Shown one piece after another: positions 41,145 through 53,629 of a DNA stretch of 61,635 nt. The stretch covers positions 1-61,635 of the forward strand of contig JAFLDE010000019.1 in NCBI GenBank assembly GCA_017302655.1, read 5' to 3'. The notes under the pieces were generated by a model, which saw only the letters and a program-made list of their open reading frames with translations, was not told the DNA's origin and made no database searches. How positions within the stretch are numbered: position 1 is the stretch's first letter; every line of letters begins with the position of its first letter. The DNA comes from Burkholderiales bacterium (lineage in GTDB: Bacteria > Pseudomonadota > Gammaproteobacteria > Burkholderiales > Burkholderiaceae_C). Made by a program: the position numbers and the translations under genes.

Positions 41145-41169
41145 CGGCCGCCGCAGAATGCGCGCCGCC

Positions 41170-42084
41170 ATGCACACCAGCCCCATCCCGTCCGCCCTCG
41201 TCATCGGCGAGGCCCTGATCGACCGATTGCCTTCGGGCGAGGTGGTGGCCGGGGCGCCGCTGAACGTGGCGCGGCATCTGCAGATGCTCGGCGTGCCCGC
41301 GCTGATGGTCAGCCGCGTGGGCGAAGACGCCAACGGCCGGCGCGTGGCCGCCACGCTGCAGGCGGCGGGCCTCAGCCTGGACGGCCTGCAGCGGGACGCG
41401 CAGCAGCCCACCGGCGTGGTGGACGTGGAGCTGGATGCCGCCGGCCAGGCCCGCTACACCATCCGAAGCCCGGCGGCCTGGGACCACATCGAGACCGAGC
41501 CGCTGCAGGCCCTGCTGCGCCGCCAGGCGCCGCGCCTCGTCGTGTTCGGCACCCTGGCGCAGCGCCATGCCGACTCGCGCGCCGCCCATGCCGCCCTGCT
41601 GGCAGAGGCGGGTGCGCAAGGCGCCCTGCGCTTTTGCGACCTGAACCTGCGCACCAGCGTGCCGGACATCGAACAGCGCGTGCGCGACTGCGTCGCCCAG
41701 GCCGAGGGCCTGAAGCTCAACGACGAAGAACTGCCGCACGTGCTCGGCTGGCTGGGCCAGAGCGACGTGCCGGCGCTGATGCGCAGCCAGCCGCAGCTGC
41801 AATGCCTGCTGCTCACACAGGGCGCCAAGGGTTTCGAGGCCTACGACGGCGAAGGCCGCCTGCGCGTGCAGGCGCCCTGCGCGCCGGTGGCGCAGCTGGC
41901 CGACACCGTGGGAGCCGGGGATGCCTTCTTCGGCTTCACGCTCGCCGCCTTGATGCACGGCCGCGAGCTCTGGGCCGCGCTGCCCGACGCCAACCGCTTC
42001 GCCGCCGCGATGTGCGGAGAGCACGGCGCCGCGCCGGCCGATCCGGAGCGCTTCTACCCGCCCTGGCGGGCGTTGCTGAGCTAG
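41170..42084 (+). CDS. PfkB-family fructokinase
   Basis: 304 aa from ATG 41170 (an in-frame ATG at 41158 would add four residues). N-terminal ALVIGEALIDRLPSGEVVAGAPLNVARHLQMLG is typical of ribokinase-like fructokinases. ADTVGAGDAFFGF near residue 250 is the second PfkB signature with the catalytic Asp. It phosphorylates the fructose released by the phosphorylase. Its TAG stop codon lies in the CTAG that forms the left end of the 272-bp repeat element. Confidence 0.92.
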   Translation: MHTSPIPSALVIGEALIDRLPSGEVVAGAPLNVARHLQMLGVPALMVSRVGEDANGRRVAATLQAAGLSLDGLQRDAQQPTGVVDVELDAAGQARYTIRSPAAWDHIETEPLQALLRRQAPRLVVFGTLAQRHADSRAAHAALLAEAGAQGALRFCDLNLRTSVPDIEQRVRDCVAQAEGLKLNDEELPHVLGWLGQSDVPALMRSQPQLQCLLLTQGAKGFEAYDGEGRLRVQAPCAPVAQLADTVGAGDAFFGFTLAALMHGRELWAALPDANRFAAAMCGEHGAAPADPERFYPPWRALLS

Positions 42085-42352
42085 GGCCTGTTAACGCTAC
42101 GGGAATCCAGCGCGTTGCCATCCAGAAACGGCACCAACGAGGCGCGAAACGAAGCCGGGGTGGTTCCCCCGGCGAGGCTTCGCAACGAAGTGGGTGCCGT
42201 TTCTGGTGGCAACCCGAAGGGAAAGTGGCTGTTGGGCCGGGATGCGGCGTTGCGCGGCTTGCCCAGGCACCAGCCTGGGCTGCGCCGCGCGCCTGGCCTG
42301 CCGGCCCAACAGCCACTTTCGCGTGGCTTCCCGTAGTGTTAACAGGCCCTAG
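42081..42352. repeat. 272-bp MITE-like structured element, copy 1
   Basis: Bounded by CTAG on both sides with terminal inverted repeats CTAGGGCCTGTTAAC-x-CTACGGGAA at each end. Inside are nested hairpins: TTGCCA-x-CCAGAAACGGCACC with its complement, a GAAGCC/GGCTTC stem, a GCCCAGGC/GCCTGGGC stem and an AAGTGGCTGTTGGGCCGG arm with its complement. No coding frame of note is present. It lies exactly between the convergent fructokinase and oligopeptidase genes. A second copy of identical length is at 52057-52328 in the same orientation, and several arms differ between copies with compensating changes. It is probably a nonautonomous mobile element. Confidence 0.88.
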
Positions 42353-44155
42353 TCAGTCAAACGACCGCTCCAACTCGTCGATCAATCGCCCCACGTACGC
42401 CACGGCTTCGTGGATGGGCTGCGGTGAGCTCAGGTCCACGCCCGCCATCTGCATCAGCTCCAGCGGCTTGCGCGTGCCGCCGGCCTTCAGCACCTCGATC
42501 CAGCGCTGCACGGCCGGAGCGCCTTCCTCTTGCACGCGCAGCGACATGGCCGTCGAGGCCACCAGGCCCACGGCGTAGGTGTAGGGGTAGAGGCCCATGT
42601 AGTAGTGCGGCTGGCGCATCCAGGTCATGCGCGCGCCCTCGTCGATCTCCACCGTGTCGCCCCAGAAGCGTTCCAGGATGCGGCCCTTGCGCTCGTTCAG
42701 CAGCGCCGCGGTGATCGCCCCGCCTTCCTCGGCCAGCGCATAGACCTGGCGCTGCAACTCCGCTTCGAGCAGGTGGGTGACGAAGTTGTGGTGGTAGGTG
42801 CCAAGCACCTGCATGATGACCGAGCGGCGCAGCCGCGTCTCCCGGCTGCGCGCCAGGATGTGCTGCGCCAGCAGCATCTCGTTCATGATTGACGGCGCTT
42901 CGATGAAGGGCATGGCCGGGCGCGTGTTCACGAAGCGCTGGTGCGCCATCGCCAGGCCGAAATGACCACCGTGGCCCAGTTCATGCGCCAGCGTGAAGAC
43001 ATTGCGCATCGTGTCCGACCAGGTAATCAGGATGTAGGGGTGCACGCCATAGGGCGAGGCGCAGAACGCGCCGGAGGACTTGCCGACGTTGTCGGCGCGG
43101 TCCACCCAGCGCTGCTCCAGCGCCCGGCGCGCGTAGGCCACGTACTCGGGCCCCATCACCTGCAGCGCTTCGAGGATCAGCGCGCAGCCGTCCTCGTAGC
43201 GCATGCGCGGGTTGAACTCCGGGTCCAGCGGGGCCTTGATGTCGCAGTACAGCAGCCGGTCCAGCCCGAGCACCCGGCGGCGCAGGCGGGCGTAGCGCTG
43301 CATGTGCGGCGCCAGTTCGGCCTGGATGATGTCGAGGATGTGGCGGTAGACCGCGTGCGGGATCTGGTGCGGCTGCAGCAGGCAGGCCTCGGTGCTGGGG
43401 TAGCCGCGCAGGCGCGCCATCACCACGTTCTTCTTCACCTCGGTGGCGAAGGTGGCGGCCCAGGTCTGGTTGTAGGCCTTCAGCCCGGCGCTGAACGAGG
43501 CCCAGGCGCCGCGGCGCACGCTCACGTCGGCATGTGCCTCGAAGTTGGACTCGAAGCCGTTCACCGAGTTGGCGTGGTGCGTGCCGGCGCTGTCGGTGAA
43601 GGGCGCGAACTGCAGGTCGCTCGCCTTCGAGCGGCTGTAGATCATCAAGGGCGCGCCCAGCACCTCGCCCAGCGCGGCCAGCACCCGCTCCGACTCGGCG
43701 GACAGCCGGTGTGGGCGCAGCGCCAGCAAGTCGTCCAGGTAGATGTCGAAGTCGGCGAGCCCCGGCTCGGCGGCGCGGAACTGCGCCAGCAGGCCCTCAG
43801 GGAAGGCCAGCAGTTCGGACGGTATGAAGCTCGTGCTGGCAGCCACCTGCGCCTGCAGCGCCGTCACGCGGGCGTTGGCCGCCTGATGCGCGGGGTGGGT
43901 GCCGTCCTGCGCGTTGCGCAGGTGCGCGAAGGTGCTCACCCGCACCGACCGCGCCTGCAGCGACTCCATCGCATTCAGGCAGGCGAGCAGGGTGGCCGCA
44001 TCGCGGGCCAGCGTTCCCTCGAAGTCGGCGAGGCTCTGGCTGGCTGCTTCCACCGCCTGCAGCTCGCGCTCCCAAGCCGCCTCGTCGGCAAACAGATCGC
44101 TCAGATCCCAGGTCAGTTCGATGGGGACTTCGGCGCGGGAAAGACGGGTCGGCAT
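42353..44155 (-). CDS. pepF: M3-family oligoendopeptidase F
   Basis: 600 aa. Zinc-binding HELGH near residue 390 with GGHFGLAMAHQ after it, and a downstream EAPSIMNEMLLAQH segment carrying the third ligand Glu, mark the M3B clade. GLYPYTYAVGL near residue 515 is the substrate-binding tyrosine/glycine segment. No signal peptide, so it degrades peptides in the cytoplasm. The stop codon (42353-42355) abuts repeat element copy 1. Confidence 0.94.
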   Translation of the reverse strand: MPTRLSRAEVPIELTWDLSDLFADEAAWERELQAVEAASQSLADFEGTLARDAATLLACLNAMESLQARSVRVSTFAHLRNAQDGTHPAHQAANARVTALQAQVAASTSFIPSELLAFPEGLLAQFRAAEPGLADFDIYLDDLLALRPHRLSAESERVLAALGEVLGAPLMIYSRSKASDLQFAPFTDSAGTHHANSVNGFESNFEAHADVSVRRGAWASFSAGLKAYNQTWAATFATEVKKNVVMARLRGYPSTEACLLQPHQIPHAVYRHILDIIQAELAPHMQRYARLRRRVLGLDRLLYCDIKAPLDPEFNPRMRYEDGCALILEALQVMGPEYVAYARRALEQRWVDRADNVGKSSGAFCASPYGVHPYILITWSDTMRNVFTLAHELGHGGHFGLAMAHQRFVNTRPAMPFIEAPSIMNEMLLAQHILARSRETRLRRSVIMQVLGTYHHNFVTHLLEAELQRQVYALAEEGGAITAALLNERKGRILERFWGDTVEIDEGARMTWMRQPHYYMGLYPYTYAVGLVASTAMSLRVQEEGAPAVQRWIEVLKAGGTRKPLELMQMAGVDLSSPQPIHEAVAYVGRLIDELERSFD

Positions 44156-44219
44156 GGGCTGAAGGGAGGCTGCAAAGGGCGCAGTGTCGGGGAGGGCCGG
44201 GACGACCCACCATCCGGGC

Positions 44220-44540
44220 TCAGTCGGCCTCTTCCAGCGCCCAGGCGCAACCCAGCAGGGCCACGACGAGCACGCCCAGATAGACGAGCCCGAGCGCAGC
44301 GCCCAGTTCGCCCGCCCCCCACTCCCGGGCAGCGCCTTGCCACAAGGAAGAGGGCAGCAGCGCGCCCCAGCTCAGCAGCGCGCCCAGCACGGCCACCCAC
44401 GGCATCCTCAGCGTGCGTGGGCGCCGGCGCGGCGGCAAGCGGGGCATCAGCCGCGCGGTGAAGCCCTCATCGGCCACGGCCTCCAGCCCGTCGCGGCGCA
44501 ACAGATCCTCCAGCGGGTCGTCGCTCAGGTCCTCGTTCAA
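44220..44540 (-). CDS. Putative anti-sigma factor (small membrane protein)
   Basis: 106 aa. An acidic N-terminus (MNEDLSDDPLEDLLRRDGLEAV) precedes two hydrophobic helices (PWVAVLGALLSWGALL and LGLVYLGVLVVALLGCAWAL). It overlaps the ECF sigma gene by 4 bp, the usual sigma/anti-sigma arrangement, with a cytoplasmic N-terminal sigma-binding segment. No zinc-binding HxxxCxxC motif is visible, so it is not a ZAS-type anti-sigma. Function inferred from context. Confidence 0.65.
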   Translation of the reverse strand: MNEDLSDDPLEDLLRRDGLEAVADEGFTARLMPRLPPRRRPRTLRMPWVAVLGALLSWGALLPSSLWQGAAREWGAGELGAALGLVYLGVLVVALLGCAWALEEAD

Positions 44541-45130
44541 GGTGCGCCTCCTTCAGCGCCCGGCGCCCAATCCTGCAGCAGCTCACGCAGCCTCGCCTTG
44601 CCGCGCAGCACATGGGTCTTCACGGTCCCCAGCGGCATGTCCATCACCACGGCGGCCTCCTCGTGGCTGAGTCCCAGCTGCACGCAATAGAGCAGGGCGG
44701 CGCGCTGCGCGGTGGACAGGCGCTGCAGCGCGACCTCGACATCCAGCCGGAGCGCCGGCGAGGCGTGCTCGGCCGGGTGGCTGCTGCTCCCTTCGGCCAG
44801 CGTCGCCTCGAGGCTCTCCTGCACGCGGCCACGCTCGCTGCGCAGATGCTGCAGGAAGCACGAGTGCGCGATGCGGTATAGCCAGGTGCTGAAGCGCGCA
44901 TCGCCGCGGAACTGCTCCAGCTTGCGCCAGGCGATGACGAAGCAGTCTTGCGCCAGGTCATCGGCCAGGGCCGCCTGCTCCCCCAGCAAGCGCCGAAGCT
45001 GTGCGCGCACCAGGCCCTGGTGCCGGCGCACCAGCAGCTCGAAGGCGCGCGCATCGGCGTCGCGCACGGCGCGCGCCACCAGCGCGGCATCCAGGCGCGC
45101 CTGTTCATCCTGCGCACCCGGCTCATTCAC
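44537..45130 (-). CDS. ECF-family RNA polymerase sigma factor
   Basis: 197 aa. Region 2 is AFELLVRRHQGLVRAQLRRLLGEQAALADDLAQDCFVIAWRKLEQFRGDARFSTWLYRIAHSCFLQ in consecutive segments (DDLAQDCF and FSTWLYRIA are the key parts). Region 4 contains LGLSHEEAAVVMDMPLGTVKTHVLRGKARL, the -35-binding helix-turn-helix. It resembles RpoE-like ECF factors that work with membrane anti-sigmas. Three genes (125-aa membrane protein, sigma, anti-sigma) overlap in one operon. Confidence 0.92.
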   Translation of the reverse strand: MNEPGAQDEQARLDAALVARAVRDADARAFELLVRRHQGLVRAQLRRLLGEQAALADDLAQDCFVIAWRKLEQFRGDARFSTWLYRIAHSCFLQHLRSERGRVQESLEATLAEGSSSHPAEHASPALRLDVEVALQRLSTAQRAALLYCVQLGLSHEEAAVVMDMPLGTVKTHVLRGKARLRELLQDWAPGAEGGAP

Positions 45131-45500
45131 GCGCGCTGCCGCGATGGGTCAGGTACCAGTTGCCCAGATAGCCCAGGCCCAGCGCCACGGGCAGGATGCC
45201 CAGGCCCCACAGCTCAGCCAGCGGGTGCCCGTGGTGGTACTGCAATGGCAGCACCAGCAGCGTGGCTGAGAGGCCGAGACCCCCGGCCATCAGCACCAGC
45301 CCGCGGCGCCGGTCGCAGGCCTGCACCGTCGCCTCGCCGGGCAGCGTGGCCGGCAGCGCTGTGCCGGTTTCCGCCAGCTTCAGCATGAACTGGTAGCGCA
45401 TCTCGGCGCGGGTGCGGCGGTAGCGCAGCACCAGGGCGGTGATCAGCACCGGCGCCAGCATCAACAGCGCCGGAATCATCAACATGGGAAGCACGTCCAT
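45123..45500 (-). CDS. Small membrane protein of the sigma-factor operon (DUF6249-like)
   Basis: 125 aa. An N-terminal helix (MLMIPALLMLAPVLITALVL) is followed by a basic RYRRTRAEMRYQFMLKLAE segment and two further helices. This resembles DUF6249 membrane proteins frequently found directly upstream of ECF sigma genes. It overlaps the sigma gene by 8 bp. The function is unknown; a sensor or modulatory role in the sigma pathway is an inference from operon structure. Confidence 0.7.
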   Translation of the reverse strand: MDVLPMLMIPALLMLAPVLITALVLRYRRTRAEMRYQFMLKLAETGTALPATLPGEATVQACDRRRGLVLMAGGLGLSATLLVLPLQYHHGHPLAELWGLGILPVALGLGYLGNWYLTHRGSARE

Positions 45501-45549
45501 GGCGTTCTCTCAGGGTAGGGACGGGTGGGCACCGGCCGGCGCCCGCCGT

Positions 45550-47070
45550 TCAGGGGCGAGCGAAGAGCGACGCTTCCACCTGCGCGTGCAGCCACTCGCG
45601 CATGGCCTCGGCGGCGTGGTCCTGGTTGGCCAGCACCGCGATCACCAGGCCGTCGTCGGGGTAGAAGAGGAACTCGGCCGAGATGCCCGGCGCCCCGCCG
45701 TTGTGCCCCACCCAGCGCTTGCCGGCGCTGTCGCCCACGGTGAAGAGGTAGCCGTAACCCATCGGGCCGAATCGCTCACGCGGCTTCCACAGCGTTTCCA
45801 GCTGGGCGCGGGGCAGCAGGCGCTCTTGCTGCAGGGCGCGAGCGAAGGCCTGCAGGTCGCGCACCGAGGCGTAGCCGCCACCCGCCGCCGATCCGCGCAG
45901 GCTCAGCCCGTCCAGGTGGTCCTGCCAGGCGCCGGCCTCGGTCTTGGTGTAGCCCAGCGCGAAGCCGGCCTGGCGGTCGTCGCGCCGGAAGTGCTCGGCC
46001 TTGCGCATGCCGGCCGGCTGGTAGAGATGCTCACGGATGTAGCGGTAGTAATCCTTGCCGCTGAGCGCCTCGATGATCAAGCCCAGGATGACCACCCCGC
46101 CATTGCTGTACTCGGTGCGCGTGCCGGGCTCGAACAGCAGCGGCTGGTCCACGAAGGTCTGCAGAAAGGCCTGCTGGCTGTCCAGCGTGGCCCGCTGCGC
46201 TTCGTGTGCCGCGTTCCAGTACGAGCCGACGCCGGAGCGGTGCGTCAGCAGCTGATGGATCGTCACCTGCTCGCGAATCTTCGCGTTCGGGAAGTTCGGC
46301 AAATGCCGCCCCACGGTGTCGCTCCAGTCCAGCCTGCCCGCCGCCTGCAGCTGCGCGATGGCGATGGCCGTGAACATCTTGTTGATCGAGCCCAGATTGA
46401 AGGGCGTGTCCACCGTGTTGCGCCGCCCGGTTTGGCGGTCCGCCAGGCCCACGGCGCCGGCGTGGATGAGCTGCTCGCCCCGCGCCACCAGCACCGCCCC
46501 GGAGAAGCGCCCCGCCTGCGCCTCGGCACGCAGCCGCGCGTCGATGGCAGCCGGCAGTTCCGCCGGCGCCAGCGCCGCCACATTCGGCGGCAAGGGCCGA
46601 ACGCCGAAGCGCTCGATCAGCGGTGGGTTTTCGCCCGTCAGCGTGAGCGTCAAGGCCACCCGTCGGCCACCTGCCAGCGTGTAGATCAGCTCGCCCTCGC
46701 GCGCGTCGCCCTGCCGCTCCGTGGGCCGGGCCGTTGCCAGCTCCGAGCCCAGCGCCTCGGCCAGCATGGAGAAAGCCTCCTGCAGCCCGGCCTCGCCCCG
46801 GCGCTCGCGGATGCCGGGGCTGAAGAAGCGCTGCATCAAAGCCGGCCGCTCGGCCGGCTTGGCCACCACCGTCTGCCAGAACCCGGCGCCCATCTGCTCC
46901 ATGGCGTGCGCCACCGGCGCTGCCGGTGAACCCTGCGCCACCGCACCGGCCGGCTGCGCCGCCAGGGCCCGGGTAGCGGGCAGTGAACCCCCCAGGGCCG
47001 TGACCAGCGTGGCCACCGCCAGCCGGCCCAGGGTGCCACGCCGGCGCCATCCCCCGTTGAAATCGACCAT
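45550..47070 (-). CDS. Exported serine hydrolase of the beta-lactamase/class C fold
   Basis: 506 aa from ATG 47070, which has a GGAG site 6 nt upstream; in-frame codons further upstream lack a signal. An N-terminal twin-basic hydrophobic signal (GWRRRGTLGRLAVATLVTALGG) is followed by a 130-residue domain. The S12 beta-lactamase-like domain then shows GSINKMF (Ser-x-x-Lys near residue 228), YSNGG (Tyr-x-Asn) and HNGGAPG. Such proteins are usually esterases or peptidases rather than resistance enzymes. The gene is just outside the integron's last attC. Confidence 0.9.
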   Translation of the reverse strand: MVDFNGGWRRRGTLGRLAVATLVTALGGSLPATRALAAQPAGAVAQGSPAAPVAHAMEQMGAGFWQTVVAKPAERPALMQRFFSPGIRERRGEAGLQEAFSMLAEALGSELATARPTERQGDAREGELIYTLAGGRRVALTLTLTGENPPLIERFGVRPLPPNVAALAPAELPAAIDARLRAEAQAGRFSGAVLVARGEQLIHAGAVGLADRQTGRRNTVDTPFNLGSINKMFTAIAIAQLQAAGRLDWSDTVGRHLPNFPNAKIREQVTIHQLLTHRSGVGSYWNAAHEAQRATLDSQQAFLQTFVDQPLLFEPGTRTEYSNGGVVILGLIIEALSGKDYYRYIREHLYQPAGMRKAEHFRRDDRQAGFALGYTKTEAGAWQDHLDGLSLRGSAAGGGYASVRDLQAFARALQQERLLPRAQLETLWKPRERFGPMGYGYLFTVGDSAGKRWVGHNGGAPGISAEFLFYPDDGLVIAVLANQDHAAEAMREWLHAQVEASLFARP

Positions 47071-47365
47071 CGCTTGCTCCTTGTGATCCATGGATCCGTG
47101 CGCACCGCCGACATGGCGGTGTTTCGGATGCTTGGATGCACGGAGAGCAGGTGTTGGATTCAGCGCCTCGCAACTTTCTTGGATCCGCAGCAGGCGTTTG
47201 CCATGCGGAGCGCCGCAGCGGAGCCGGCGGGATGCGAGTGGGTGGGCGCTCGCCGTTGGGCGTGCAGGAGCGGTCCGTTCCCGGCGCCTCAATCAGAGGT
47301 CGTTGGGGGCCAAGGCGGTTGCTCGATCGGCCTGGGCCAGGACTGGATCAAGAGCTGCGTTTGCT
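47071..47365. other. Intergenic stretch between the hydrolase gene and the last attC
   Basis: About 295 bp, GC-rich. I see no gene with a ribosome-binding site, no terminator with a T-tract and no further attC. Open frames on the plus strand reach into the attC and look like chance. It is the boundary between resident chromosome and cassette array and may hold decayed cassette sequence. Confidence 0.5.
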
Positions 47366-47425
47366 GATCAACGCAAAGCTAAACGGCGGCCCGCCAGGGC
47401 CGTCCGTTTGAGCGACCTGTTGTAC
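47366..47425 (-). repeat. attC of the methyltransferase cassette (terminal attC)
   Basis: R'' GTACAAC (minus strand, 47425-47419) and R' core GTTGATC (47372-47366). Inner arms AAACGGCGGCCC and GGGCCGTCCGTTT pair with one extra unpaired base, the extrahelical base expected of attC. Length 60 bp. The following core has no complementary box further left, so this is the array end. Confidence 0.85.
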
Positions 47426-47451
47426 GACACACGCACCAACGTAGGAACGCG

Positions 47452-48288
47452 ATGCCTGAGAAAGTGAACATCGGAGCGCACGAGCTGTGGCATGGAGACT
47501 GCCGCGAAGTGCTGCCCATGCTGGCCGACGCGAGCGCCGACATGGTGTTCACCTCGCCGCCCTACAACTTGGGCAACACCACTGGCGGCGGCTTCCCCGG
47601 GAAGAAGCTCGGCCACTACAACCAGCAGGCAGGCATGAAGGCGCGCGGCGGCCTTGGCAAGTGGGGTGGCGGTGGCTTGGCCGATGGCTACGAGGACTAC
47701 GACGACGCGATGCCGATGGATGACTACATCGCGTGGCAGAAGGACACGCTGCGGCAGTGCTGGCGAATCCTGACCGACAAGGGTGCGATCTACTACAACC
47801 ACAAGCCGCGCGTGCTGGACGGCGTGGCGCTGCTGCCGCTGGCCTACAACCCCGACTTGCCGCTGCGCCAGATCGTGATTTGGGCGCGCGCTGGCGGGGT
47901 GAACTTCTCGCCCGTGGCGTACCTGCCCACGCACGAGTGGGTGATGATCTTGGCGCGGCCCGACTTCCGGCTGCGCGACAAGAGCGCGAGCGGCGCCGGT
48001 GACGTGTGGTACGTGCCGCAGGAGGCGAACACCGAGCACCCTGCTCCATTTCCTTTGGCGCTGCCGATGCGCGCCATTGAATCGACTTCGTGCGCGACCG
48101 TGCTGGACCCGTTTATGGGCAGCGCGACGACTGGCGCGGCGTGCGTGGCACTTGGGCGCCGGTTCATCGGCATCGAGCGCAGCGCACGGTTTTTCGACAT
48201 GGCGTGCAAGCGCATCGAGAACGCGATGGCGCAGGGCACGCTATTGGCCCCAACCCCTGCTGGCGAACAGCAGGCGCTGGAACTGTGA
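47452..48288 (+). CDS. Cassette-borne DNA methyltransferase (beta-class, N4-cytosine/N6-adenine)
   Basis: 278 aa. TSPPYNLG (residues 34-41) is the catalytic motif IV and [10 protein letters not shown] (219-228) is the SAM-binding motif I. The order IV before I marks the beta class; Ser before Pro-Pro-Tyr favours N4-cytosine methylation but does not prove it. A glycine-rich insertion ([20 protein letters not shown]) follows motif IV. The gene fills cassette C5 but reads opposite to aadA and qac, so it needs its own promoter. No restriction endonuclease gene is next to it, hence an orphan methylase. Phage relatives are likely. Confidence 0.9.
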
Positions 48289-48289
48289 C

Positions 48290-48359
48290 GTACAACGTTT
48301 GAGTTCAGCCGACCGAGCCAGCGCAGCTGGCGCGGGTCGGCTGCAATGAAAGGTTATGG
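48290..48359 (-). repeat. attC of the membrane-protein cassette (C4)
   Basis: R'' CCATAAC (48359-48353) and R' core GTTGTAC (48296-48290), 70 bp. The inner arms CAGCCGACCCGCGCCAGCTG and CAGCTGGC/GGTCGGCTG on the same strand fold into a long stem. It lies directly after the stop of the 129-aa gene. Confidence 0.88.
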
Positions 48360-48360
48360 A

Positions 48361-48750
48361 TCAACCGCATGGCCCATCATTTAGGGAAATGCGAAAGAGC
48401 CTTATGTACTCTGCAAGAGACTCCGGTGGCCCCGGGTAAAACGGAGCGGCCGCCGCCTCAATGAGGAAGTAGCCGACAACGAGGATGCTTAGAAATACGA
48501 TCCTCCTTGGGTGTGATGTAAGTAGCTGACTCGGTCGCACGAGCGCAGCGCCAGCCGCGACTGCAGCGCAGGCAAGAAAAGCCTTCTTGTGCCACAGGTA
48601 CCCACCACAAGAGGCAAATCCAAACCAGACGGCGCCAATGAAGACCACCGCAAACGCCAACCAGACCAATGCGTTGCGCTCGGAGCGGCTGGCAATACCC
48701 TGCAATTGAGCTGCCTCAGTAGTTCGCATTTCGTCGCAAATCTGATCCAT
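48361..48750 (-). CDS. Cassette-encoded membrane protein of unknown function
   Basis: 129 aa. The ATG at 48750 is inside the GTTATGG core site, so the integration site supplies the start codon; no Shine-Dalgarno is visible. Three hydrophobic stretches are seen: VWLAFAVVFIGAVWFGF, AFLACAAVAAGAALV and FLSILVVGYFLIEAAAA. The C-terminal tail is soluble. I recognise no family. Being in C4 and facing away from attI, it would be expressed from the integron promoter or by coupling. Confidence 0.75.
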   Translation of the reverse strand: MDQICDEMRTTEAAQLQGIASRSERNALVWLAFAVVFIGAVWFGFASCGGYLWHKKAFLACAAVAAGAALVRPSQLLTSHPRRIVFLSILVVGYFLIEAAAAPFYPGPPESLAEYIRLFRISLNDGPCG

Positions 48751-48845
48751 AACGTTTGACGTGAGGGGCCGCCGTAGCGGCGAAGCCGCGAAGGGAACCC
48801 GCAAGCGCAGCTTGTGGGCGGTCCCTCTCGACGGAATGGTTAGAT
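48747..48845 (-). repeat. attC of the qac cassette (C3)
   Basis: R'' ATCTAAC (48845-48839) and R' core GTTATGG (48753-48747), 99 bp. Inner arms GAGGGACCGCC and GGCGGCCCCTC pair with a one-base offset, and a second internal stem (GCGAAGCCGCGAAGG region) extends the loop. It follows the qac stop by about 10 bp. Confidence 0.88.
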
Positions 48846-48854
48846 GCGACCGTT

Positions 48855-49187
48855 TTAGTGAACACTTGCCTTAGATAGCAAGTTGAGCACAGCAACGCCG
48901 CTGATAATGAAGCCGACACCAACAAATCCCCACATATCTAGTTTTTGACCATGCAAAACCCATGCAATCGCAGTGACCAAGACGATCCCGAGGCCCGACC
49001 AAACTGCGTAGGCGATTGCAACAGGAATCGATTTGAGTGTCAGCGACAGGAAATAAAAAGCAGCAGCGTATCCCGCTACGACGATAAAAGACGGTACTAA
49101 CCTAGTAAAGCCCTCACTAGACTTGAGCGCAGAGGTTGCAATGACCTCAGAAATAATGGCCGTAGCCAGAAATAACCAATTTTTCAA
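48855..49187 (-). CDS. QacE-family small multidrug resistance efflux pump
   Basis: 110 aa, the standard length of QacE/QacF/QacG/QacH, from TTG 49187 with a GGAG site upstream; qacE-type genes are also known with this start. Four helices. The essential Glu14 sits in [28 protein letters not shown] and the tail [12 protein letters not shown] match cassette-borne Qac pumps rather than SugE. It exports quaternary ammonium compounds with proton antiport. The cassette is strikingly AT-rich (for example around 49170-49260) against its GC-rich host, a sign of recent acquisition. Confidence 0.92.
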
Positions 49188-49283
49188 AATATTTCTCCAT
49201 GGAGTTCCGCGAAGAAATTTTAGGTTCGATTTAAGAAAAAAAACAGTCTTGTTGCTGGCCGAAATTTGTGCGCACAGCAAAGC

Positions 49284-49340
49284 ATCTAACGCATAGTTGA
49301 GCGGCGGGCGCAGCCCGTCCGCTTGAACGCCGAGTTAGGC
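49284..49340 (-). repeat. attC of the aadA cassette (C2)
   Basis: R'' GCCTAAC (49340-49334), L'' and L' arms around CAAGCGGACGGGCTGCGCCCGCC, and R' core GTTAGAT (49290-49284), 57 bp. Short, compact form typical of aadA cassettes. Confidence 0.92.
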
Positions 49341-49386
49341 ATCAGATGCCCTCGGCGCGGGTCGATGCACTTTTCGCACATGCCGC

Positions 49387-50175
49387 TCAACGCAAGATTC
49401 TCTCAATCGTTGCTTTGGCATATCGAACGAACGCGGCCGTCTCTTCGACGCGCATTGCTAGGTCGTCGTCCTCGCTACCCAGGTACGCCGCGCGTGCCTT
49501 GCAGATGAGGGGCCGATGCTCGGCAGGCAAACGCTCCGATACCCATGCGGCAGCAACGTCCTTAGGAGCAATGAGACCAGTTGAAGCGCTGTACCAAATG
49601 CGAGCAAGAGCAAGAACGACGTTCCGCTCGTCACCCTTCCAATCCGACTCTGCATTCCACTGGGCAATAGTGTCGAAAAGCGCCTTGGAGAAATGCTCCT
49701 TCGGCACCGGCTCGAAAAACGTGGCTGCGGATGGGCCTAGAAGCGCAAGGCTGTGTTGCCTCGCCTTGGTCAGCAAAATCGCAAGATCGTGATCCAGAAC
49801 GGCAGGCTCGAACGTTCCGGAAAGGATGTCGTGGCGGAGCCACTCACCGAACTGAAGCTCACGCCGCGCCGGATAGCGCCAAGGCACTACTTCGCTTCGA
49901 GCGACAACAGTTAGCTCCAGCGGTCGCCATGTTCCGCCATCGCCTGGCGGTGATGAGACTTTCAGCAAATCGAGCATTAGCGCCTGCCGGAGCGAATCGT
50001 TAGGTGCGGCGCTGACGGTCACGAGCAAGTCTATGTCGCTGTCCGGCTTCAGCCCTCCATCGATCGCAGATCCGAACAGGTGGATTGTGTCCAGTGTCGC
50101 AGCCAGATGGCGCTCGATCACCGCGCGAGCGTGGGACAGCTGCTTGAAAACTTGTGCAGGGAAAAATTCACCCAT
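49387..50175 (-). CDS. aadA: Aminoglycoside (3'')(9) adenylyltransferase, AadA5-like
   Basis: 262 aa, beginning MGEFFPAQVFKQLSHARAV, which agrees with my memory of AadA5/AadA4 from clinical class 1 integrons (often next to dfrA17). I see no difference from that recollection, but identity needs an alignment. FGSAIDGGLKPDSDIDLLV (34-52) is the nucleotidyltransferase motif with Mg ligands Asp47 and Asp49. KRELQFGEW-type and WKGDERNVVLALARIWYS segments are AadA signatures. It modifies streptomycin and spectinomycin. The ATG follows the GTTAGGC core by 3 nt and has no ribosome-binding site. The upstream attI-borne reading frame stops 5 nt before it. Confidence 0.95.
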   Translation of the reverse strand: MGEFFPAQVFKQLSHARAVIERHLAATLDTIHLFGSAIDGGLKPDSDIDLLVTVSAAPNDSLRQALMLDLLKVSSPPGDGGTWRPLELTVVARSEVVPWRYPARRELQFGEWLRHDILSGTFEPAVLDHDLAILLTKARQHSLALLGPSAATFFEPVPKEHFSKALFDTIAQWNAESDWKGDERNVVLALARIWYSASTGLIAPKDVAAAWVSERLPAEHRPLICKARAAYLGSEDDDLAMRVEETAAFVRYAKATIERILR

Positions 50176-50178
50176 GAT

Positions 50179-50280
50179 GCCTAACGCCAGCATGAGCGGA
50201 CCCCAACGGCCCGCACAGGAGGTTGAAGATGGAACAGAGTAGCCGGGCCGTTGAGGGTCCGCTCGATGCGACAGTTGTGC
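50179..50280 (-). repeat. attC of the first cassette (C1)
   Basis: R'' GCACAAC (50280-50274) and R' core GTTAGGC (50185-50179), 102 bp. Inner arms AGCGGACC/GGTCCGCT and CAACGGCCCG/CGGGCCGTTG pair with one extra base. The R'' box matches GTTGTGC at 50593-50587, which fixes the cassette's attI-side boundary. Confidence 0.88.
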
Positions 50281-50675
50281 CGCTGGATCCGAAGCGCGCG
50301 GCGTTTGAGGCCTGGTGCTGCAGACGCTGGGCCGGTGACCGCGGCGGGCTTGCGCGCTACCCGCAGGACCACGAGCGACACGCAGGCCAGTACAGGACCG
50401 GTGCCGTGGAGTTTGCTTGGTGCGCGTGGCAGGCGGCGCAATGAGCAGCAGGGAGCCCGGCATTTCAGACGGGGCCGGTGTCGCGCCGGCTCGATTTTCC
50501 CTGCTACCGCGTGGCGCCTGCGGATCAGGCGTTGACCCCCGACAGCCGCTGACGTTGCGGGCCAGATTCTACGCGGACCACAAGCGGCACAACGAGTTTT
50601 GGGGAGACTGCATAAAGCAGGGCACTGCCGCATAAAAACGCAGGTCATGGGCAGCGTAAGTGCTTGATCGAGCAT
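50181..50675 (-). CDS. attI-initiated reading frame running through cassette C1 to the aadA start
   Basis: ATG at 50675 with a near-ideal GGGAGGA Shine-Dalgarno (50686-50680) 4 nt upstream. The first 27 codons are in attI (50675-50594); the frame then continues uninterrupted through cassette C1 and ends at the TAG formed by the aadA core site (50183-50181). The encoded 164 residues are Arg/Ala/Pro-rich and match no family I know, so the product itself is probably not functional. Its importance would be translation towards aadA, like ORF-11 in attI1. The frame through C1 could also be a chance result of high GC. Confidence 0.5.
   Translation of the reverse strand: MLDQALTLPMTCVFMRQCPALCSLPKTRCAACGPRRIWPATSAAVGGQRLIRRRHAVAGKIEPARHRPRLKCRAPCCSLRRLPRAPSKLHGTGPVLACVSLVVLRVARKPAAVTGPASAAPGLKRRALRIQRHNCRIERTLNGPATLFHLQPPVRAVGVRSCWR
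50277..50444 (+). CDS. Small phage-like hypothetical protein in cassette C1
   Basis: Frame open from within the attC; start uncertain (GTG 50277 or ATG 50229). The segment AAFEAWCCRRWAGD and the end EFAWCAWQAAQ match a pattern (FEAW...AWxAWQAA) that I have seen in many small phage and plasmid hypothetical proteins. It reads towards attI, opposite to aadA. About 55 aa from GTG. Function unknown. Confidence 0.6.
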   Translation: MPLDPKRAAFEAWCCRRWAGDRGGLARYPQDHERHAGQYRTGAVEFAWCAWQAAQ

Positions 50676-50690
50676 AAATTCCTCCCAAGT
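50587..50690 (-). other. attI region with the attI/C1 junction core
   Basis: The core GTTGTGC (minus strand, 50593-50587) marks the recombination junction, cut between 50593 and 50592. The remainder to about 50690 is the integrase-proximal attI, holding the ribosome-binding site and first codons of the leader reading frame. Imperfect direct repeats of GCATAAA occur at about 50610 and 50630. Integrase-binding sites other than the core cannot be defined by eye. Confidence 0.7.
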
Positions 50691-50718
50691 TGACTGTTGT
50701 TTTATCCAGTAGCAAACT
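50690..50718 (+). promoter_or_regulatory. Integrase promoter with overlapping LexA box
   Basis: TTGACT (50690-50695) is a strong -35; a weak CAAACT -10 lies 17 bp downstream at 50713-50718. CTGTTGTTTTATCCAG (50694-50709) fits the LexA pattern CTGT-N8-ACAG with one mismatch and overlaps the -35 and spacer, as reported for SOS-controlled integron integrases. LexA binding would repress intI until DNA damage. The divergent cassette promoter Pc probably overlaps but is not clear. Confidence 0.72.
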
Positions 50719-50782
50719 GCGCCCTAAATCGGCCCGACCTGCAGGCGCTCTGCGGGCAGGGTGCCGATGCAAGGAGGCCATC

Positions 50783-51847
50783 ATGCCGTCCGCCCCTCAC
50801 GGTCGCGAGTCCGAGTTTGCCCCAGGGCAGCGAACGCTGGCCAGGCCTCTCAGGCTGGTGGCGCCGCTGCCCCCGCTCAGGGCCCCCAAATTGCTCGATC
50901 AGGTGCGTGAGCGCATCCGCTACTTGCACTACAGCCAGCGGACCGAAGACGCCTATGTGCATTGGATTCGCGCCTTCGTGCGCTTCCATGGCCTGCGTCA
51001 CCCGTCCGAACTGGGCGCGCCGGAGGTCGAGGCCTTCTTGCGCTTTCTCGCTTCGGAGCGTCAGGTGGCGCCGTCCACCCACAACCAGGCGCTGGCCGCG
51101 CTGATCTTTCTGTACGCCAAGGTGCTTGGAGGGTCTCTGCCGTGGATGCAGGAGATCGGCCGGCCCAGAGCCTCACGCCACGTACCGGTGGTGCTCACAC
51201 CCAGTGAAGTCACGGCTGTGCTGGATGGTTTGCAGGGTGAACACCGCTTGCTGGGCCGTTTGCTCTACGGAGCGGGGCTGCGCATCTCCGAGGCGCTGGA
51301 ACTGCGCGTCAAGGACGTGGACTTCGGGCATCAGGCCCTGGTGGTGCGGCAGGGCAAGGGCAAGAAGGACCGGGTGGTCATGCTGCCCGTCAGCCTCCAA
51401 CCCGCGCTGAAGGATCAGCTGCTGCGCGCCCATGCGGTTTGGGAACAGGACGTCGCGGCGGATCGCAGCGGCGTGGCGCTGCCCGATGCGCTGGAGCGCA
51501 AGTACCCGCGCGCTGGGCACAGCTGGGCCTGGTTTTGGGTGTTTCCGCAGGATCATCACTCGACCGACCCACGCAGTGGGGTGGTTCGCCGGCACCACCT
51601 GTACGACCAGACCTTTCAGCGGGCGTTCAAACGCGCGGTGCAGGCCGCAGGCCTTCACAAGCTGGTCACCCCGCACACCTTGCGCCATTGCTTCGCCACG
51701 CATTTGCTGCAGGCGGGCTACGACATCCGCACCGTGCAGGACTTGCTCGGCCATGCCAATGTGGCCACCACCATGATCTACACCCATGTCCTCAAGCTCG
51801 GTGGCGGCGCGGTGCGCTCGCCGCTGGATGGCTTGGGCATGGCTTGA
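50783..51847 (+). CDS. intI: Integron integrase (tyrosine recombinase)
   Basis: 354 aa. ATG 50783 was chosen for the AAGGAGG site 5 nt upstream; the frame is open to a TTG at 50690, which lies inside the promoter. Catalytic residues are all present: Arg167 ([10 protein letters not shown]), His298 and Arg301 ([14 protein letters not shown]), His324 (LLGHANV) and Tyr333 (MIYTHV). The IntI-specific insertion covers about 245-290 ([29 protein letters not shown]), which binds the extrahelical bases of folded attC. It resembles freshwater/soil betaproteobacterial IntI. Apparently intact and functional. Confidence 0.97.
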
Positions 51848-51859
51848 ACGGAGGCACTC

Positions 51860-51931
51860 ATGAACTTGGATCCGGATCGCATCGACGACGCCGTGCTGGC
51901 TTTGCTGCGGACCCTGTTCTCGCAGCGGTGA
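51860..51931 (+). pseudogene. Truncated DUF6429-like remnant after intI
   Basis: 23 codons, MNLDPDRIDDAVLALLRTLFSQR, with a CGGAGG ribosome-binding site and 12 bp after intI. The first 16 residues match the N-terminus of DUF6429 proteins (about 85-100 aa), which I recall as frequent companions of betaproteobacterial intI genes. The rest is missing, and 125 bp later repeat copy 2 begins. Probably a decayed gene. The match is short, so chance is not excluded. Confidence 0.55.
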
Positions 51932-52056
51932 CCGGCGCCAGAGAAGGCGCCTGCCGCAGGCGTGCGGCCATGGCATGGGCTTGCGGTGCGCCCTTGGGCG
52001 AATGCTGCCGGCTCGCCTGCGTTGCGCGAAGCGCTCCGATCAGACTTCCGGCGCTC

Positions 52057-52328
52057 CTAGGGCCTGTTAACACTACGGGAAGTCAGCGCGTTGCCATCCC
52101 AAAACGGCGCCAACGCGGCGCGAAACGAAGCTGGTGCGAGTGCACCAGCGAGGCTTCGCAACAAAGTGGGCGCCGCTTTAGGTGGCAACCCGGAGGGAAA
52201 GGGCCTGTTGGGCCGGGATCCTGCGTTGCCCGGCTTGCCCAGGCGCGAGCCTGGGCAGCGCCGCGCGCCTTGGCTGCCGGCCCAACAGGCCCTTTCGCGT
52301 GGCTTCGCGTAGCGTTAACAGGCCCTAG
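52057..52328. repeat. 272-bp MITE-like structured element, copy 2
   Basis: Same length and orientation as copy 1, CTAG at both ends and the same terminal inverted repeats. Compared with copy 1, the long arm reads AAGGGCCTGTTGGGCCGG with its complement CCGGCCCAACAGGCCCTT, so both sides changed together. A second arm reads GCTGGTGC/GCACCAGC instead of GCCGGGG/CCCCGGC, and a third CGGCGCC/GGCGCCG instead of CGGCACC/GGTGCCG. It lies between the convergent intI (with remnant) and hisD, and its right CTAG supplies the hisD TAG stop. Confidence 0.88.
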
Positions 52329-53629
52329 CCCAAGCGCAAGCTCGCCGAACGCGCGTGCGCTTGCAGGCCCTCGCCCTGGGCCAGCACCTCGGCCACCGGG
52401 CCCAGCGTGCGGGCGCCGGCTTCGCTGATGTGCAGCAGGCTGCTGCGCTTGACGAAGTCGTACACGCCCAGCGGCGACGAGAAGCGCGCGGTGCCGCTGG
52501 TGGGCAGCACGTGGTTGGGGCCGGCGCAGTAGTCGCCCAAGGATTCCGACGCGAAAGCGCCCAGGAAGATGGCGCCGGCGTGCTGGAGTTGCGGCAGCCA
52601 GCGCAGGGGCTCCTGGCTGCTCACCTCCAGGTGCTCGGGGGCGATGCGGTTGCTCAATGAGCAGGCCTCGTCCATGGAGCGGGTGAGGATGAGTCCGCCG
52701 CGCCCTTCCAGGCTGGCGCGGATGGTGGCGGCGCGCGGCAGCGTGGGCAGCAGGCGCTCCATGGCGGCCTGCACGGCGTCGAGGTAGGCGGCGTCGGGGC
52801 TGAGCAGGATGCTCTGCGCCAGCTCGTCGTGCTCGGCCTGGCTGAAGAGGTCCATGGCGACCCAGTCGGGGCTCACGCTGCCGTCGGCCAGCACCAGGAT
52901 TTCGCTGGGCCCGGCAATCATGTCGATGCCGACCTGCCCGAACACGCGGCGCTTGGCGGCGGCCACGTAGGCGTTGCCGGGGCCGGTGATCTTGTCCACG
53001 CGCGGGATGGTGGCGGTGCCGTAGGCCAGCGCGCCCACCGCCTGCGCGCCGCCCACGGTGAACACGCGGTGCACGCCGGAGAGAAACGCGGCGGCCAGCA
53101 CCAGGGCGTTGCGTTCACCTTTCGGGGTGGGCACGACCATGACGATCTCGCCCACGCCCGCCACCTGCGCGGGAATGGCGTTCATCAGCACCGAGCTGGG
53201 GTAGGCCGCCTTGCCGCCGGGCACGTAGATGCCCACGCGGTCCAGCGGCGTGACCTGCTGGCCGAGCACCGAGCCGTCTTCGTCTTCGTACTGCCAGCCC
53301 TGGCACACGGCGGCCGCCTGCGCCTCGTGGTAGCGGCGCACGCGGGCGGCGGCAGTCTGCAGGGCCGCTGCTTGCGCGGCCGGCAGGCCGTCGAACGCGG
53401 CCTGCAGATCGGCGCGGGCAATTTCCAGCTCGGCCACCGAGGCGGCCTGCACGCCGTCGAACTGGGCGGTGCGTGCCAGCACGGCGGCGTCGCCGTCGCG
53501 GCGCACCTCGGCCAGGATGCCGGCCACCGCCTGCTCGATGCCCGCGTCCTGCGCCTCGCTCCAATGCAGCAGGGATTGCAGGCGGGTGTCGAAGTCGGCG
53601 TGGCGGGTGTCGAGGCGGGCGATCTTCAC
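52325..53629 (-). CDS. hisD: Histidinol dehydrogenase
   Basis: 434 aa. [59 protein letters not shown] and the later [20 protein letters not shown] are HisD signatures with the zinc-binding and catalytic residues. It performs the last two steps of histidine synthesis. It overlaps hisG by 4 bp. Its TAG stop lies in the end of the 272-bp repeat; hisC and the rest of the his genes, usually next, are absent. Confidence 0.97.

Follow-up and report, generated by a model that had tools for sequence, protein, structure and literature searches.

What keeps the two sides of a hairpin arm complementary when both of them change? The question is raised by a stretch of 61,635 nucleotides from a Burkholderiales bacterium (positions 1 to 61,635 of contig JAFLDE010000019.1, assembly GCA_017302655.1), here called the window, which contains two copies of a foldable repeat, referred to below as the element:

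42081–42352, + strand: element copy 1, 272 bp
52057–52328, + strand: element copy 2, 272 bp

The original prediction for this locus had described two 272-bp copies with the same ends and many substitutions, several of which had altered both partners of a hairpin arm together. This description held. The copies are 87% identical, lie in the same orientation and have CTAG at both extremities, and the double changes GTGGCT/AGCCAC to GGGCCT/AGGCCC, CGGCACC/GGTGCCG to CGGCGCC/GGCGCCG and GCCGGGG/CCCCGGC to GCTGGTGC/GCACCAGC are all present in them. In our reading, the element is probably a non-autonomous DNA transposon (a miniature inverted-repeat transposable element, MITE) with IS5-type ends, the interior of which is a three-way-junction fold conserved at the level of DNA. 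A broader proposal is put forward more tentatively: in a family that extends across several proteobacterial classes, long-term selection may have acted on DNA secondary structure (an either-strand three-way junction with boxed arms), which would serve mobility in cis and be combined with IS5-type ends.

The fold is a three-way junction made up of the paired ends, which form a terminal stem, two arms, and a near-invariant CAACCCnnnGGG centre with a mini-hairpin. In copy 1, its parts and the five short boxes conserved within it are located as follows, with box frequencies given for the 123 elements used in the box scan:

42083–42113, + strand: left terminal inverted repeat, forming the 5′ strand of the terminal stem (AGGGCCTGTTAACGCTA...), helix 1
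42114–42213, + strand: arm 1, comprising stem, internal loops and apical hairpin, helices 2–4
42138–42144, + strand: box X1, consensus CAAGGCG, reading CGAGGCG in copy 1; found with at most one mismatch in 106/123
42182–42190, + strand: box Y1, consensus GCAACGCCG, reading GCAACGAAG in copy 1; CAACGCC with at most one mismatch in 96/123
42210–42221, + strand: central box Z, CAACCCnnnGGG, with the mini-hairpin at the junction; 110/123
42221–42320, + strand: arm 2, comprising stem, internal loops and apical hairpin, helices 6–9
42245–42253, + strand: box Y2 (CGGCGTTGC), reverse complement of the Y1 consensus; GGCGTTG with at most one mismatch in 80/123
42289–42296, + strand: box X2, consensus GCGCCTTG, reading GCGCCTGG in copy 1, reverse complement of the X1 consensus; CGCCTTG with at most one mismatch in 92/123
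42321–42350, + strand: right terminal inverted repeat, forming the 3′ strand of the terminal stem, helix 1

Three or more of the five boxes, with up to one mismatch in each, occur in 107 of the 123 elements; when the interiors were shuffled (20 times per element), three boxes were found in 0.12% of cases and more than three in none. A length of 266–269 bp was shared by 108 of 129 pattern matches, a count that includes duplicate loci of the window's genome. Two longer forms occur in one genome (G112), one of 344 bp with additional sequence in arm 1 and one of 421 bp, which contains a run of N and is probably an assembly artefact. The folding z-scores of the two copies were −17.8 and −12.9 with RNA parameters, and −16.7, −16.1 (other strand of copy 1) and −11.4 with DNA parameters; in each run, none of 200 shuffles folded as well. 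The longest open reading frame (ORF) wholly within either copy has 73 codons for amino acids. This frame is open in 57 of 140 elements. The other frames are open about equally often, with none clearly favoured, so that a conserved protein encoded by the element is unlikely.

Pairing in this fold has been maintained through extensive change. For the genus, 22 copies from three genomes were compared. Standard pairs (G-U included) made up 97.8% of cells, compared to a mean of 89.7 in shuffles; both sides had changed in 35 of 94 pairs (shuffled mean 17.4), and 142 cells held a both-side change (shuffled mean 40.3). None of 500 shuffles matched any of these values, although the derivation of the structure from the same alignment favours it in this comparison. 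When the partners were slid by 1–3 columns, pairing fell to 34–44%. A wider set was assembled from 145 elements, of which 140 were retained by length (262–280 bp) and 81 fell below 85% identity. In these 81 divergent elements, both-side changes were seen in 70 of 83 pairs, and the columns of box Z over CAACCC and GGG had a conservation of 0.93–1.00. Covariation was assessed with our own implementation of a tree-based null, in which the substitutions of each FastTree branch were redistributed (40 null alignments, 35,778 column pairs). At E < 0.05, 38 column pairs covaried: 36 of them belong to the 108 pairs of the consensus fold, two lie within two columns of such a pair, and none fall elsewhere. 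The predicted maintenance of the folded form is thus borne out by excess covariation. Copies with disrupted or missing arms, which the prediction would have counted against itself, do exist; they look like deletion derivatives. We also considered a long single hairpin in which X1 would pair with X2 and Y1 with Y2. This alternative was rejected, as it gave no significant covarying pair; the boxes are nearly invariant, and pairing there is hardly testable by covariation.

Covariation is usually taken as evidence for RNA. An RNA helix tolerates G-U, but not A-C. A first test by stem segments was dominated by one arm, and mismatches were therefore recounted only in helix cells flanked by Watson–Crick pairs, with RNase P as a control (29 of the 30 best-scoring loci fetched across the phylum, from 29 genomes; the shortened L297 was excluded). 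In such flanked cells, the 81 elements had 98 G.T and 99 A.C mismatches and the genus set had 22 and 29, while RNase P had 111 G.T and no A.C among 1380 cells. This near-equality of G.T and A.C places the maintenance of pairing at the level of DNA, whether through selection on folded DNA, template-switch correction, or both. Strong selection on RNA from one strand is not indicated, and folding of both strands or copying from arm to arm fits the counts. The 36 covarying pairs of the fold are accordingly combined here with a mismatch symmetry that disfavours a one-strand RNA role and suggests that the folding molecule is DNA, rather than RNA made from it. The element offers a test set for separating RNA selection, folded-DNA selection and template-switch correction.

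By its ends, target and dispersal, as read from sequence comparison, the element is an IS5-type MITE. Its ends match those of insertion sequences (IS) of the IS5 family of ≈824 bp (NF033580, transpos_IS5_3), with which it has in common the terminal inverted repeats GGGCCTGTTAACAC(TA) and, to judge from the flanks, a YTAR target within which it lies between TA dinucleotides. When 30 IS5-transposase loci were fetched, 18 of them, representing 11 genomes, had paired GGGCCTGTTAACACTA-like ends (up to four mismatches) at a distance of 805–830 bp; the remaining 12 loci had one end or none. Pfam and NCBIfam assign the transposase halves to IS5: they match DUF4096 and DDE_Tnp_1 (Pfam). Against NF033580, the second half scored 133.1 bits (cut-off 110) and the first 99.6, below the cut-off. 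The transposase was present in 14 of 150 genomes of the bacterial family (E ≤ 1e-30). Unlike the IS, the element has no room for a transposase, and a comparison of six such IS with elements revealed shared sequence at the ends only, with 0/161 matches elsewhere. The interior is thus no simple IS remnant.

Among the 126 of 145 elements for which flanks were analysed, 103 had TA on both sides, and a pyrimidine preceded the TA in 96% of their flanks (YTAR). Recent movement is indicated by a single-contig genome in which copies at two unrelated sites are identical over 271 bp; the second of these has one flank in common with a third identical copy. Another genome contains two amplified subfamilies, 95–98% identical within and ≈70% between them, and has no IS5_3 match at E ≤ 0.001. 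Placement was analysed for 113 of the 145 elements, those flanked by 900 bp or more on each side, using simple ORF calls and control YTAR sites from the same loci, including intragenic ones. Of 226 element sides, 41 coincided with a stop codon that ends an ORF of 100 or more amino acids, compared to 143 of 4510 control sides, and the orientation of the element relative to a lone tail-end neighbour was balanced (23 vs 22).

These observations fit a scheme in which an IS5-family transposase would move the element in trans. The fold would form in single-stranded or extruded DNA during replication and help mobility, for instance by pairing one end with the other, or by making the boxes and junction accessible to a transposase or host protein; a cis-acting module of this kind is the use of the fold that we favour. 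Mismatches would arise on one side and be compensated later, with part of the compensation perhaps supplied by template switching. Insertion at YTAR would preserve the stop codon of a gene that ends in TAG, and many insertions would thereby be harmless. If the fold does serve mobility, the element would be a passenger transposon that keeps a DNA shape, not a sequence, across bacterial classes.

Several observations weigh against this interpretation. The part played by the fold in mobility is one that we infer. No exact empty site was recovered, since the relatives' loci without the element were too diverged for an exact junction, and we infer the TA duplication from the flanks. In five element-bearing genomes (the window's own, G003, G004, G012 and G106), no NF033580 match exceeded the cut-off; IS5_3 searches gave one weak match under the cut-off in the window's genome and eight partial ones in G106. 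The mobiliser in these genomes may have been lost, may be incomplete in the assembly, or may be another enzyme. Without the flanking-pair filter, G.T exceeded A.C in the 81 elements (399 vs 320) and in the genus set (71 vs 37, where a few columns account for part of the excess), the corresponding RNase P counts being 297 and 15; in the stem-segment test the counts were 65 and 46 (p = 0.087), and those of arm 1 were skewed (34 vs 13). The RNase P control is also less divergent than the elements (mean identity 0.70 vs 0.52), and its G.T excess was weak in the pairwise timing test described below. Single-sequence folds, on which that test relies, contain wrong pairs, and it is for this reason that the flanked-cell count discriminates and the timing test does not. 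The boxes, finally, lie partly in paired and partly in loop positions, and unpaired columns are on average not more conserved: outside the 15-base ends, the mean top-base frequency was 0.60 for the 186 paired columns and 0.56 for the 55 unpaired ones, and 0.8 was reached by 37 and 9 of them, respectively.

The most serious competitor is an ordinary IS5-type MITE with an unused fold, its arms being kept complementary by template-switch correction during replication. Two papers describe template switching as capable of making and preserving hairpins with compensatory changes (PMC8794818) and of homogenising inverted-repeat arms, with inversion of the spacer also reported (PMC8604942). The timing of paired change was examined in copy pairs, with each copy used once per identity bin (62, 42, 37, 19 and 20 element pairs; 13, 13, 5 and 2 for RNase P). 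Double and single changes numbered 2 and 39 at ≥95% identity, 39 and 90 at 90–95%, 259 and 305 at 80–90%, 466 and 498 at 70–80%, and 745 and 1169 at 60–70%. One-sided breaks thus come first and compensation later. At 80–90% identity, 139 of 259 double changes in elements were of transversion type, compared to 6 of 25 in RNase P; these many transversions, like the G.T/A.C symmetry, fit copying that is blind to the mismatch. Template switching alone, however, leaves the conserved boxes, the narrow length range and the junction unexplained. Box order in arm 1 was forward in 88 of 140 elements and inverted in one doubtful row, which can also be read forward; in arm 2, it was forward in 87 and inverted in none, the others being unscored. 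Since the order is almost never inverted, unlike the spacers reported with template switching, selection on the interior is likely, beside any template switching, and the fixed order of the conserved boxes suggests that selection contributes to the upkeep of pairing. The original prediction had read the paired changes as selection on the fold; this is likely to be right in part, but selection need not be the sole cause, as template switching is also described as making compensatory pairs. An unused fold seems to us rather unlikely as the full account.

Two other explanations have less in their favour. The element could be a folded single-stranded DNA substrate of another recombinase, in the manner of attC sites and integron integrases or of REP hairpins and RAYT, with its IS5-like ends incidental. 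Varying stems with fixed boxes and a fixed junction are what would be expected of DNA recognised by structure, copy 2 adjoins an integron integrase gene, and four of the five element-bearing genomes searched had no or one weak IS5_3 match. Like the element, the attC sites of integrons are folded DNA in which certain features are conserved and the stem sequence is free to vary. They differ from it in that the element has the ends, TA flanks and YTAR target of an IS5-type IS, and REP/REPIN elements (GTAG-tagged hairpins, RAYT) differ in size and ends. The window integrase itself was disfavoured as the mobiliser, because only distant relatives of it were found, in 2 of 122 fetched element loci (L042–L163), at 32% identity and over 61 residues. 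We consider a substrate of this kind improbable. A structured RNA spread by transposition, be it a small RNA, a 3′ untranslated region element or a bidirectional terminator, would be suited by the very stable RNA fold and the frequent position at gene ends, and an RNA used from both strands would be compatible with the G.T/A.C balance. It is opposed by A.C being as common as G.T in flanked cells. A scan of the window with Rfam 15 gave no family at gathering score, no promoter-like site was found in 41881–42552, and the lone terminator-like hit in that interval was at shuffle expectation; the even orientation relative to neighbours speaks against an RNA role as well. The small RNA carrier and bidirectional terminator that had been suggested for the element therefore lack support, and we regard an RNA role as the least probable of the explanations weighed here. 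The favoured reading remains the IS5-type MITE with a DNA-level fold.

An exact-end pattern scan of a collection of species genomes yielded at least 119 stretches. Among the matches listed, relatives belong to Beta- and Gammaproteobacteria, two Alphaproteobacteria (Pelagimonas and Pelagibacterium) and one Zetaproteobacterium, the classes being taken from record titles and the assignment of genus to class partly from general knowledge. The Pelagimonas copy has one box within one mismatch; two further listed records are titled Acidobacteriaceae (one box, at most one mismatch) and Croceivirga (no box). With the window's own genome counted, the element was present in 3 of 6 genomes of the genus, in 7 of 398 across the phylum with strict ends and in 9 of 229 of the class with looser ends. 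The exact 18-base end was found in 26 of 150 genomes of the bacterial family. The exact-end counts are lower bounds, because end variants with a similar interior occur: GGGTCTGTTGAC and GGGCCTGTTGAC were found on Azotobacter, Pseudomonas and Halomonas plasmids (the copies L361, L363 and L364, from Halomonas, Azotobacter and Pseudomonas aeruginosa). To judge from these plasmid copies, the ends can take on other sequences without loss of the architecture. The window's own genome contains nine near-full-length copies and partial ones, as well as a second subfamily (L398, G000:C143:29781-30048) with ends AGGGTCTGTTGACC and a fold of the same kind. Searches with the window copy against plasmid and phage sequences, with one Vogesella copy against phages, and with two element queries against E. 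coli genomes gave no match. The end pattern was seen at matching spacing on four IMG/VR viral contigs (L161, L162, L163 and L366).

The original prediction knew of no named family with these ends, and neither a name nor a description of the family was recognised in a literature search of titles and abstract openings; one paper contains the end sequence, used there as a primer. Among known repeats, the RUP, Correia/NEMIS and ERIC MITEs are likewise small, repeated and foldable, with inverted ends and TA at the ends, and for RUP, mobilisation in trans by an IS transposase has been proposed (PMC2229807). They are ≈100–200 bp long and, as described there, armless stem-loops, whereas the element has ≈270 bp, a three-way junction, conserved boxes and a range of several classes. 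The CIR repeats of Caulobacter and Brucella also have two inverted-repeat arms with a linker and a structure conserved between genera; the same paper describes them without pairing of the 5′ and 3′ ends, whereas the element's ends are paired with each other and its junction carries a central mini-hairpin.

Hairpins of 53–59 bp, perfect or near-perfect, in which only the paired element ends are left, were seen at five loci (L196, L197, L199, L201 and L202). They are apparently independent internal deletions, and such derivatives would be expected if the hairpin forms in vivo. One IS5-type IS (L193) has its two reading frames around an A8 run.

Both copies in the window abut gene ends. Copy 1 is flanked tail to tail by a PfkB-family kinase gene (41158–42084, + strand) and an M3-peptidase gene (42353–44155, − strand). 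Copy 2 lies 209 bp past the integron integrase gene and abuts the 3′ end of hisD (52325–53629, − strand). Each shares a stop codon with a neighbour:

42082–42084, + strand: TAG stop codon of the PfkB-family kinase ORF, in common with the left end of copy 1
52325–52327, − strand: TAG stop codon of hisD, in common with the right end of copy 2

The hisD loci fetched in five of five congeners had no matching inverted repeat (up to two mismatches). Three of these congeners are without any copy of the element, which makes their empty hisD site less telling.

The integron between the copies extends over 48855–51847:

48855–49280, − strand: qacG2-like SMR transporter ORF
49387–50463, − strand: aadA-family ORF
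50690–51847, + strand: integron integrase (TIGR02249, E = 8.9e-140)

A simple pattern search found no attC-like sites in 44101–50800, so that the cassettes are not shown by attC, and Rfam with lax E-values over the integron stretch gave nothing above cut-off. About 60% of 48300–52060 was matched at ≈80% by ten plasmid records among the matches listed, several of them annotated with intI1. The ORF at 45550–47292 has a Beta-lactamase Pfam domain, and its scores fall well short of the cut-offs for the 25 NCBIfam families listed; it is probably an esterase- or penicillin-binding-protein-like relative.
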